In this document: one piece after another, positions 5,636 through 33,626 of the stretch | Position numbering within the stretch: position 1 is the stretch's first letter | How the letters are laid out: each line of letters begins with the position of its first letter | Assembly (NCBI RefSeq): GCF_002159765.1 | Contig: NZ_NFJH01000016.1 | Coordinates: 1 to 38,957 of the forward strand | Source: Collinsella sp. An268 | GTDB taxonomy: Bacteria > Actinomycetota > Coriobacteriia > Coriobacteriales > Coriobacteriaceae | DNA: 38,957 nt | Reading direction: 5' to 3' | Notes under the pieces: generated by a model | The model's database searches: none | What the model saw: only the letters and a program-made list of their open reading frames with translations | What the model was told of the DNA's origin: nothing | Program-made: the position numbers and the translations under genes

Positions 5636-5715
5636 GGGCGGGCGGCGTCCCAAAACCTTGTCGAGCGAATTCGCGAAGCGCTGAGTGAGACAAGGTATTG
5701 GGATACCGCCCGCCC
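5636..5715. repeat. Long inverted repeat (27-nt arms) between the convergent ATPase and ppc genes
   Basis: The left arm 5636-5662 (begins GGGCGGGCGG, ends CCTTGTC) is complementary to the right arm 5689-5715 apart from three mismatches, with a 26-base loop that itself contains the palindrome GCGAATTCGC. There is no T tract on either strand, so it is not a standard terminator, though it could act as a bidirectional one. Confidence 0.85.
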
Positions 5716-11331: not shown

Positions 11332-11392
11332 CAAGGAACCCGCTCTTAGGCCCCATTCTCGACGCCCAAGGGGACTAAGCGCGGGTTCCTTG
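11332..11392. repeat. Inverted repeat with 18-nt arms downstream of the aldolase gene
   Basis: CAAGGAACCCGC... (11332-11349) pairs with ...GCGGGTTCCTTG (11375-11392) with one mismatch; a GGCCCC/GGGG pairing extends the stem inwards. No T tract follows on either strand. The remaining gap 11257-11627 contains only the small hairpin at 11515 and no convincing gene. Confidence 0.8.
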
Positions 11393-17208: not shown

Positions 17209-17547
17209 ATGGCAACCAAACAGGAAATCTCAATGATCGGCTTCGAAATCGTCGCCTATGCAGGCGATGCCCAGACCGATCTCATCGCCGCCCTCGACGC
17301 CGCGCGCACGGGCAACTTTGAGGAGGCGGAGCGTCTGCACAAGCAGGCGAGCGACGAGCTTATCGGCGCGCATGATACGCAGACGAAGCTCCTCTCGCAG
17401 GAAGCGGGCGGTGGCGAGATGGACGTCACCTTTATCATGGTGCACGCGCAGGACACGCTTATGACGACCATGATGCTCGAGAAGCAGACGCGTTTCATGA
17501 TCGACGAGTACCGCCGCATCGCCGCCCTGGAGGCGAAGCTCTCCTAA
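17209..17547 (+). CDS. lacF: PTS lactose/cellobiose-family EIIA component
   Basis: Cytoplasmic phosphocarrier that takes phosphate from HPr and passes it to the EIIB domain of a lactose/chitobiose-type permease. The 112-residue helical protein carries the phosphorylation site FIMVHAQDTLMT; H79 is the expected phospho-His and D82 the metal-binding Asp. The ATG at 17209 has AGGAGG five bases upstream. It stands alone: no lactose-family EIIB or EIIC and no 6-phospho-beta-galactosidase (lacG) is in the window, and the only other PTS here is of the unrelated mannose family. The lacABC neighbours support a lactose or galactoside substrate; the lacF symbol is therefore by context. Confidence 0.88.
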   Translation: MATKQEISMIGFEIVAYAGDAQTDLIAALDAARTGNFEEAERLHKQASDELIGAHDTQTKLLSQEAGGGEMDVTFIMVHAQDTLMTTMMLEKQTRFMIDEYRRIAALEAKLS

Positions 17548-17559
17548 CGGAACTCCCCT

Positions 17560-17645
17560 AGCCCCTAAACACGCATCCGAGAAGCGGGCCCCGCCGTGTG
17601 CATACGCACAGCGGGGCCCGCTTCTCGGATGCGTGTTTAGGGGCT
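17560..17645. repeat. Perfect 35-bp inverted repeat after the EIIA gene
   Basis: The left arm 17560-17594 (starts AGCCCCTAAACACGC, ends GGGCCCCGC) is exactly complementary to the right arm 17611-17645. The 16-base centre can itself pair as GTGTG/CGCAC. It begins 12 bases after the EIIA stop codon. No T tract follows on either strand. Confidence 0.95.
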
Positions 17646-17670
17646 GATATGTAGACTATCCTGTCAAGAG

Positions 17671-17710
17671 CCAAAACCGTCCCCGCCCGTGTTTCGCGGG
17701 CGGGGACGGT
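17671..17710 (-). terminator. Hairpin terminator at the outer end of the IS110 relic
   Basis: ACCGTCCCCGCCCG (17676-17689) pairs perfectly with 17697-17710, leaving a seven-base loop; on the minus strand TTTT follows. It lies downstream of the relic transposase on the same strand. Confidence 0.65.
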
Positions 17711-17934
17711 CTCTCTATATCCGTATCCGATCCGGGGCGGCGGCGCGGCGGAGAGCCGGCTGGCTTCAGCGAGCTCCAGTCTGACATCCGCGCGTCGAGG
17801 CGCATTCCGATCCATCCGGCGCGGGGCGCCCGCTTCTCTAGTACCGCGCGCGGCCCGAGGGCCGCGCATAGCCGGTCCGCGGTTCTCCCCATCGCCCGCC
17901 GCTGCCGCCTCCCCGGCGGTTGTCGGCCCTCGCA

Positions 17935-18179
17935 GTTGGCGAGGGCCCAGACGAAGCCGGCGAGCTCGCGCGCCGCCTCCTGCCCCGGCGTGGGGCAGAG
18001 GCGCTCCACGGCGTTCCCGACCGCGAGCATCCTGGAGAGGAACGCGGCGTCCCTCTTGTCGGTCTTCACCCGGTCCCCGGACGGCTTGAACATCTTGCTC
18101 ACCGCGCCCACGCAGGTGGGCAGCCCGAGTCCGTCGAGCGGGCGCGTACGTCGAGGCCGATGCCGGCGCGATAGATCAT
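17935..18179 (-). pseudogene. IS110-family transposase (DEDD recombinase) relic
   Basis: The ATG at 18179 has GGAGG eight bases upstream and starts MIYRAGIGLDVRARS, the usual N terminus of IS110-family transposases. From about 18138 the homology continues in another frame with LDGLGLPTCVGAVSKMFKPSGDRVKTDKRDAAFLSRMLAVGNAVERL, the family's conserved stretch with the DARRDA-like RVKTDKRDA motif. The segment that should join them (about 60 residues, including early catalytic-domain residues) is missing, giving an internal deletion plus frameshift. Homology fades after QEAARELAGFVWAL, so the 3' half is also lost. Cannot encode an active enzyme. It separates the EIIA gene from lacR and records an old insertion in the locus. 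Confidence 0.85.
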
Positions 18180-18290
18180 GGCTGGGACCTCCTATGACTT
18201 GTGGCGGGCCTGTCCTGCGACTCGAGCCCAACCCACGTCGCCGCAGATGCGGCCTTCGATTCATAGAGAGAGGTCCCAGTCGCTCTCTAC
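18180..18290 (-). ncRNA. Structured leader of the IS110 relic, possible bridge-RNA remnant
   Basis: Directly upstream of the relic ATG, CTGGGACCTC (18182-18191) and GAGGTCCCAG (18270-18279) form a 10-bp inverted repeat around about 78 bases that include the hairpin GCCGCA/TGCGGC. On the minus strand the inner copy overlaps the Shine-Dalgarno sequence. IS110 elements are known to encode a bridge RNA in this position; here that is inference from location and fold. Confidence 0.3.
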
Positions 18291-18369
18291 ATATCTTCTA
18301 GTCGGAGCGCCGAAGAGCCGTGTTCGCTCAGCCGGCGGCGCCCCCGCACTGCCCGCCGGATGGATCGGG

Positions 18370-19134
18370 CTACTGCAGGACCTCCGTGTACTCGGACAGC
18401 TGCCGCAGGGCCTCAGGGGCTATCGTCTCATCGGTAATGAGAGCGTCGAGCTTGATGAGATGGTAAAACGAGAAGAAATCGCGCCTTCCCACCTTGCTCG
18501 CGTCAGCCACCAGGTAGCGGGCGTCCGCCTTCTCGAAGGCGAGCTCTTGGAAATGCCCCTCCTCGGCGTTGGAGGTGGAGACCTCGCCGTCGTAAATTCC
18601 GTTGGCGCCGATGAAGGCGATATCGAGCCCCAGCTTGCCGATGGCGTCCTCAGCGAGCGGTCCGACGAAGGCGCCTGTCCGTGGGCGATACATCCCGCCG
18701 ATCAGGCAGAGGTCATACCCCGCGCTGCCCTCCAGCCTGTTGAACACCGAGAGCGAATTGGTAACGATACGGAGGCGGCAGGCAGGCAGGAGGGGAACCA
18801 TCTGCTCCACCGTCGTCCCCGTACCCAGAAATACCGTCGAGCCCTCCTCGATGAGCGACACGGCGCGCGCTGCGATGGCGCGCTTCTGCGCCGTGTTGCG
18901 ATCGCGCTTCTCAGAATGGCTGTACTCTTGGCGCAGCATCGAGTGCCGGCGCGCACCGGCGCTGCGGGCGCCGCCGTGGACGCGCACGAGCTCGCCGGAG
19001 CTTGCCATCTCCTCCAGATCGCGCCGTACGGTCATCTCCGAGACGTCGAGCTGAGCGGCGATATCCTTCACCGACGCGGATCCGCGCTCCTCAACAAGGC
19101 GCTTGATGCTGTCCTGTCGCTCCGCTTTTATCAT
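18370..19134 (-). CDS. lacR: DeoR/LacR-family transcriptional regulator
   Basis: A 254-residue DeoR-family repressor: N-terminal HTH at about 1-57 (RQDSIKRLVEERGSASVKDIAAQLDVSEMTVRRDLEEMASSGELVRVHGGA) and a C-terminal DeoRC sugar-phosphate sensor domain (FLGTGTTVEQM, VTNSLSVFNRL, LIGGMYRP, FIGANGI). LacR of Gram-positives responds to tagatose-6-phosphate; the position between lacABC and galMKT makes it the natural regulator of both. I chose the ATG at 19134 because it gives the usual family length; a weak GAGGATGG lies upstream. The protein diverges from galM, with the candidate operator TACCGTTCAT in the shared gap. AgaR- or FruR-type alternatives are possible from sequence alone, so the symbol is by context. 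Confidence 0.8.
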   Translation of the reverse strand: MIKAERQDSIKRLVEERGSASVKDIAAQLDVSEMTVRRDLEEMASSGELVRVHGGARSAGARRHSMLRQEYSHSEKRDRNTAQKRAIAARAVSLIEEGSTVFLGTGTTVEQMVPLLPACRLRIVTNSLSVFNRLEGSAGYDLCLIGGMYRPRTGAFVGPLAEDAIGKLGLDIAFIGANGIYDGEVSTSNAEEGHFQELAFEKADARYLVADASKVGRRDFFSFYHLIKLDALITDETIAPEALRQLSEYTEVLQ

Positions 19135-19417
19135 AGGTTCCCATCCATCCTCTGTTGCTCTGAACGCAGCGCCCGAGCTCGCGTAAAGGTAAGCGCGCGG
19201 CTGCGGAGACATTGTGCGGCACGGCACCTTCTTGCAAGTTGGTTGGCACACACAACGCCGTCACCGGTCTCGTCTCGGCAAGGCGTACCCCTCGGAACCG
19301 ATCCATTATATGCATACGTTGCCATCGTTCATTATCATACCCGACCGTCAGGTTTCTCTGATGATATGCGTTCGTTCTGTTCGATTACCGCCCATTACCC
19401 GTTTGCTGCATAAATAC

Positions 19418-33544: not shown

Positions 33545-33626
33545 TAGGTATACGCAAACGCCAAAGTTGCGTATACCTAGATCGCCGGGTATACGCAAAC
33601 GGAAGCGTTGCGTATACCCGGCGATC
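33545..33626. repeat. Two adjacent long palindromes sharing GTATACGCAA
   Basis: The first palindrome (33545-33579) has 12- to 13-base arms (AGGTATACGCAA and its complement); the second (33580-33626) has 19-base arms (starting GATCGCCGGGTATACGCAA). They abut and share the core GTATACGCAA, present four times. They lie 18 bases past the argD stop codon, between convergent argD and the tRNA gene. A weak T-rich stretch (CTATTTG) follows on the minus strand. Confidence 0.9.

Follow-up and report, generated by a model that had tools for sequence, protein, structure and literature searches.

What is the perfect palindrome that directly follows a phosphotransferase EIIA gene in Collinsella sp. An268? 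The window, i.e., the whole stretch of DNA analysed here (38,957 nucleotides), is the entire contig C8 of a 2.37-Mb genome (G000) that is listed as 99.96% complete. The initial annotation described two exact 35-base arms around a 16-base self-pairing centre, longer than a terminator needs and followed by no T tract, and offered three readings: a non-autonomous palindromic element, a mobile-element end, or an extremely stable 3′ RNA structure. Arm alignment and RNA folding confirmed the arms and the centre. Of the three readings, the last was found to fit best. The palindrome is probably (roughly 0.6) an unusually long gene-end (3′-UTR) hairpin of the EIIA transcript, acting as a putative terminator or 3′ boundary, and is best read as a new, extreme case of a known kind of gene-end hairpin. 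It is present in a single copy, was entered later by an IS110-family element at its CTAG foot, and resembles a class of long intergenic hairpins that are over-represented in convergent gaps.

The palindrome and its surroundings

The features of the locus are as follows.

17209-17547, plus strand: lactose/cellobiose-type PTS EIIA gene (PF02255, E 4.6e-29), a single gene on this strand
17560-17594, plus strand: left perfect arm of the palindrome, inferred to have spanned 17558-17594 before the insertion
17595-17610, plus strand: centre of 16 nt; after a single mismatch, five more pairs (one G-U) form around CATA
17611-17645, plus strand: right perfect arm of the palindrome; its final CT is the inferred left core of the IS110 insertion
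17646-18299, minus strand: IS110-family relic, 654 bp compared with 1480 bp for the copy in the genome G079, with a broken transposase
17646-17655 and 18286-18295: inverted repeats near the ends of the relic, GATATGTAGA and TCTACATATC, respectively
17676-17710, minus strand: 14-bp hairpin of the IS110 element, downstream of the transposase and followed by TTTGGC; it recurs in the G014 and G079 copies
18300-18301, plus strand: host bases AG, which continue the right arm once the insertion is left out, giving arms of 37 bp
18370-19251, minus strand: DeoR-family regulator (PF00455 and PF08220), convergent with EIIA; start codon as in the ORF-tool listing

The two arms, of 35 nt each, are perfectly complementary, and the palindrome is real. 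The sequence of its centre is CGTGTGCATACGCACA. Folding of positions 17540-17680 as RNA gave a minimum free energy of −95.3 kcal/mol, compared with a shuffle mean of −41.8 kcal/mol (z −14.4), and none of 200 shuffles was as good. Among perfect arms with a loop of 3-20 nt, 35 bp was the second-longest in the 1.24 Mb sampled from four genomes. A perfect inverted repeat of 36 bp with a 3-nt loop, one pair longer than that of the window, was found in a sister species (G005:C11:84530-84604; L181:4530-4604). Composition shuffling of a 300-kb part yielded two 11-bp hairpins and none longer; thus, the palindrome did not arise by chance.

The palindrome is located between EIIA and the IS110-family relic, as had been described, with the relic starting at 17646. 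The CT found on both sides of the relic is taken as the core dinucleotide of the insertion. Joining the flanks on this CT gives GGGGCTAG and lengthens the perfect arms to 37 bp (CTAGCCCC...GGGGCTAG), which far exceeds what a terminator needs. Because the joined arms are longer and still perfect, the palindrome predates the insertion and is not an end of the element. Before the insertion, the palindrome would have lain between EIIA and DeoR, two convergent genes, with its foot 68 nt from the DeoR stop in the joined site; the 654-bp relic now separates it from DeoR.

The left arm starts 12 nt after the EIIA stop codon (17545-17547), and a G+C-rich stem-loop is thus present shortly after the stop, as at intrinsic terminators. 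The bases after the right arm are GATATGTAG / GATATGTA, without the U tract that directly follows the stem of such a terminator; the absence of a T tract had been noted correctly. In the joined site, the 37-bp stem is followed by TCGGAGCG. The lack of a T tract on both sides of the palindrome, and in the joined site as well, excludes a textbook intrinsic terminator, and 17560-17645 was not reported by a consensus terminator scan.

To the left of EIIA are minus-strand genes encoding a LacAB-type isomerase and a class II aldolase. The named relatives of EIIA belong to Coriobacteriia, Collinsella and Enorma among them, and more distant relatives are found in Bacillota; the orthologues in Collinsella-type genomes reach 88% identity. 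When the whole locus was compared with those of four named relatives, DNA similarity was observed to extend to the EIIA stop and to end there. As synteny is lost at this point in all four, neither an orthologous junction nor an orthologue of the exact hairpin was found among them. The nearest relatives carry a different sequence after EIIA, with a short U-tailed terminator at that place.

Other features of the window may be mentioned here. A 103-aa minus-strand open reading frame (17558-17869) spans the palindrome and the relic. Rfam families in the window were limited to an aspS RNA (RF02930; 2129-2212, minus strand, 79.2 bits) and a tRNA. Two adjacent hairpins with 13- and 19-bp arms and common GGTATACGCAA/TTGCGTATACC are present at 33545-33626, about 190 nt downstream of tRNA-Thr, and resemble a repeated dyad. 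Long, slightly imperfect intergenic hairpins with 27- and 23-nt arms are located at 5636-5715 and 11332-11392, respectively.

Long hairpins at gene ends

Is a hairpin behind EIIA exceptional? One hundred EIIA loci, some of them paralogues, were fetched, and 56 were examined after the stop codon. One (L071) was too short; from the others, 35 distinct downstream sequences were obtained, of which the 31 coriobacterial ones were counted and the four from Bacillota were not. In 21 of the 31 coriobacterial sequences, a stem of at least 7 pairs was found in which four or more of the six bases at or just after the foot are T. The T tail was absent in 10 of the 31, including the palindrome of the window and a 19-pair hairpin of Enorma. 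A hairpin after EIIA is usual, but the length of the palindrome is not. The idea that it is just the ordinary EIIA terminator is therefore nearly right: related EIIA genes have a hairpin soon after the stop, in most cases with a U tail, and the palindrome differs in its length and in its missing tail.

The wider class was characterised in a sample of 1,238,957 bases from the same genome and three relatives, with long inverted repeats defined by arms of at least 20 nt, up to 12% mismatch and a loop of up to 60 nt. Of 41 such repeats, 39 are outside any called gene; convergent gaps account for 15 of them, co-directional gaps for 17 and divergent gaps for 7. These counts depend on a home-made hexamer gene caller rather than on standard annotation. 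Convergent gaps make up 20% of intergenic bases, yet contain 15 of the 39 repeats, which are thus over-represented there. A modest excess was also seen close to stop codons: 15 of 32 stop-adjacent repeats lie within 40 nt of a stop, compared with a mean of 10.5 for random placement within the same gaps as the real repeats (71 of 2000 simulations were as high). The part of the sample from the genome of the window contains 10 long repeats, compared with 1 after block shuffling, and 9 of these 10 are each confined to one position in the sample.

Most members of this class lack a U tail: in 33 of the 41, the next eight bases contain fewer than 4 T and the preceding eight fewer than 4 A. Among 65 intergenic perfect hairpins of at least 12 bp, 17 have at most 2 of these bases on both sides, and 15 have at least 5 T after or at least 5 A before, although this last count rests on an earlier version of the gene caller, which mis-called EIIA. 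The hairpin between gap and pgk was considered as further evidence for a U-less class and rejected: its stem is kept in the 8 aligned genus genomes (9 searched), with differing loops, and at least 4 T follow the stem in 6 of the 8. The tails at 21 of 31 EIIA hairpins, 15 of 65 intergenic hairpins and 6 of 8 gap-pgk hairpins indicate that U tails are not foreign to the lineage. Overall, the data point to a trait of Coriobacteriaceae, in which long gene-end hairpins often lack U tails and can be missed by a consensus terminator scan.

How would such a hairpin act? Since the palindrome is symmetric, RNA from either strand would form much the same hairpin. The EIIA mRNA may have its 3′ end defined by this hairpin, which may also have bounded the convergent deoR mRNA before the insertion. 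Two routes are conceivable. The hairpin could stop the polymerase without a U tail, or Rho-dependent termination could come first, with the hairpin then blocking 3′-to-5′ exonucleases. Rho-dependent termination followed by exonuclease trimming back to a stem can form a 3′ end, and stems above about 20 bp are typical RNase III substrates. That poly-U is not always needed for intrinsic termination has been argued from 13 genomes (PMC8355165).

The palindrome resembles intrinsic terminators, including those reported to lack poly-U, in being a G+C-rich hairpin just after a stop codon, but differs from them in its perfect arms of 35-37 bp and missing U tail, and termination here is putative. The likeness to bidirectional terminators lies in the probable pre-insertion position between the EIIA and DeoR stops and in a symmetric stem that could serve both strands. 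Unlike these, it has no U tail on either side, its foot is 68 nt from the DeoR stop even in the joined site, and the relic now parts it from DeoR.

A rather unlikely explanation is that the palindrome is a mutational by-product: template switching during replication would have extended a modest terminator or quasi-palindrome and made its arms perfect, with no function beyond that of a short hairpin. Quasi-palindromes have been described as undergoing template-switch mutation (PMC7202029), and the fully perfect arms, the single copy and the short U-tailed terminator of the nearest relatives at that place are all consistent with this origin. However, long hairpins recur in the four sampled genomes, and their excess in convergent gaps is not given by a position-blind mutational process alone. 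The gene-end reading can itself accommodate the perfect arms: template switching during replication may correct arm mismatches, while selection for the 3′ end may keep the hairpin structure.

Copy number and the IS110-family relic

Could the palindrome be a non-autonomous mobile element of the MITE or REP type? Multi-copy palindromes do exist in the bacterial family, and those with ACGCAATAAG arms occur in G012 at 6 places in the sample. However, MITEs and REPs are present in several copies, whereas a search of the palindrome's own genome gave one full copy, the next match being 30 nt long (E 0.0146). No full-length copy was found in the 39 relatives among the 40 genomes searched, the best match there being 29 nt (E 0.003). 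Searches with the palindrome against 72,556 plasmid and 50,697 phage records gave no match, and a 24-nt stretch of the arm had no exact match in IMG/VR, collections from which records close to this genome may have been left out. Being single-copy and absent from the other genomes and records searched, the palindrome is not a multi-copy mobile element. The mobile-element reading is improbable and already largely refuted. Like REP/BIME and MITE palindromes, that of the window is intergenic and was entered by an IS110-family element; it differs from them in being single-copy, with no family found in its genome.

Two candidate signs of a family were also rejected. Weak matches at C9:29326 and C22:17406 do not form the same hairpin. 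In G004, the loop 12-mer GTGTGCATACGC also occurs between gap and pgk, in a hairpin of 13 bp, which was judged a coincidence; the 12-mer was found at 14 places in 64 genomes, with a stem of at least 7 pairs only there and in the window, and the gap-pgk hairpin of the other aligned genus genomes except G001 has the same stem with another loop.

Palindromic repeat families were observed elsewhere in the bacterial family. The palindromes with ACGCAATAAG arms are intergenic and multi-copy and are present on G012:C1 (L157-L176), e.g., at 385227-385306, 380454-380523 and 265439-265504, and TGGGTCA..GGGACG palindromes occur in G012 and G005.

What, then, is the relationship between the palindrome and the element that touches it? 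The 202-aa open reading frame of the relic itself had no Pfam match. The G079 copy, which is 88-93% identical to the relic in three stretches, contains PF02371 and PF01548, i.e., a DEDD transposase with IS110 domains, and the family assignment is made through this copy. DNA of the relic was matched in 5 of 65 family genomes, its own included. The left boundary GCT|GATATG is shared by the window, G014 and G079, and the right boundary CATATCTTCTAG by these three and G084. In all four, CTAG follows the element, as with insertion at a short defined site with a core dinucleotide. In G014 the element is located at the end of folB; the uninterrupted folB of G009 ends in CGCGCTAG, and the CTAG beside the element is therefore host sequence. 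The 14-bp hairpin at 17676-17710 was considered as the EIIA terminator and rejected, since it recurs in the IS110 copies of G014 and G079.

It is very improbable that the palindrome is a part or product of this element, be it an end, a circle junction or a target made by the element. It is in direct contact with the end of the element, and IS110/IS1111 elements have been described as able to target palindromic sites (PMC11208160, PMC11187229, PMC1525189); insertion sequences targeting REPs (PMC1525189), and a CT core with REP targets for IS621 (PMC11208160), have been described as well. However, the G079 and G014 copies share the same end, and no perfect hairpin longer than 6 bp was found within 120 nt beside it, in a comparison in which the G079 right flank and the G010 end were not used. 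The element thus recognised sequence, not the hairpin. In addition, no copy of the element in the 65 family genomes was found to include the 35-bp arm, and the host origin of CTAG and the longer, still perfect palindrome of the joined flanks place the palindrome before the insertion. The suggestion of a mobile-element end is accordingly not upheld. As in the IS110-type element IS621, the core is CT, with insertion at GCT/AG; the difference is that other copies lie beside flanks without a long palindrome, so that the target was not signalled by the hairpin. Even a conspicuous palindrome next to an insertion sequence is thus not necessarily mobile; here, the insertion sequence came second, at the foot of the palindrome.

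Perfect palindromes can also arise as fold-back chimeras in assembly or amplification, but this origin is highly improbable here: the site is internal to a 38,957-bp contig of a nearly complete genome, its centre is asymmetric, the sequence on either side of it is unique, and its arms continue as AG beyond the 654-bp insertion. An operator or other protein-binding palindrome, for the adjoining DeoR regulator or a nucleoid protein, would account for a symmetric site beside the DeoR gene, but is equally improbable for arms of 35-37 bp that lie downstream of both genes and are not repeated as a whole elsewhere in the genome.

The R1 hairpin family

Outside the window, an inner motif common to three long hairpins was found, and a pattern search with it gave five copies in the sample, from which a covariance model (R1) was built. 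Matches at E ≤ 0.001 were obtained in 25 of 40 genomes, with up to 22 per genome and 4 in the genome of the window. All 9 genomes of the genus and 15 of 16 from the rest of the family had matches, as did 1 of 15 from other families, the last being marginal. Across these 40 genomes, the R1 family thus appears nearly confined to Coriobacteriaceae. It was considered as the parent of the palindrome and rejected, since no R1 match was found at 17560.

R1 hairpins contain conserved internal loops. In an alignment of 47 distinct rows, which was fitted to the structure and in which some places are represented by both strands, 95.6% of cells pair. In the same alignment, 22 of 26 pairs have changed on both sides, and none of 500 shuffles was as high. 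Gap types were scored for 31 of the 55 matches, leaving out 19 reverse-strand matches, three repeats of the same places or orthologues, L248 and L249. The 31 places comprise 13 convergent, 12 co-directional and 5 divergent gaps, and one edge position. At 11 of the 12 co-directional places, a gene ends 21-48 nt away and the model is on its antisense strand, so the sense RNA is the reverse complement.

A scan of three 20-kb stretches detected no Rfam family at gathering score, and no description of R1 was seen in Rfam or in literature searched for other purposes. R1 is possibly a new 3′-UTR element beside stop codons. A broader and doubtful proposal is that Coriobacteriaceae often end transcripts with very long, near-perfect, U-less hairpins, some of which (those above 30 bp, as here) would have the length for cleavage as double-stranded RNA in an RNase III-type manner, and that convergent pairs thereby share a single double-stranded 3′ boundary. 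In that case, the palindrome at 17560 would be an extreme example, and the R1 family a conserved, possibly protein-bound version. Examples of R1 sites are G005:C11:170319-170392, G003:C1:72958-73025 (L190:12958-13025) and G000:C21:97487-97555 (L238:1501-1569).
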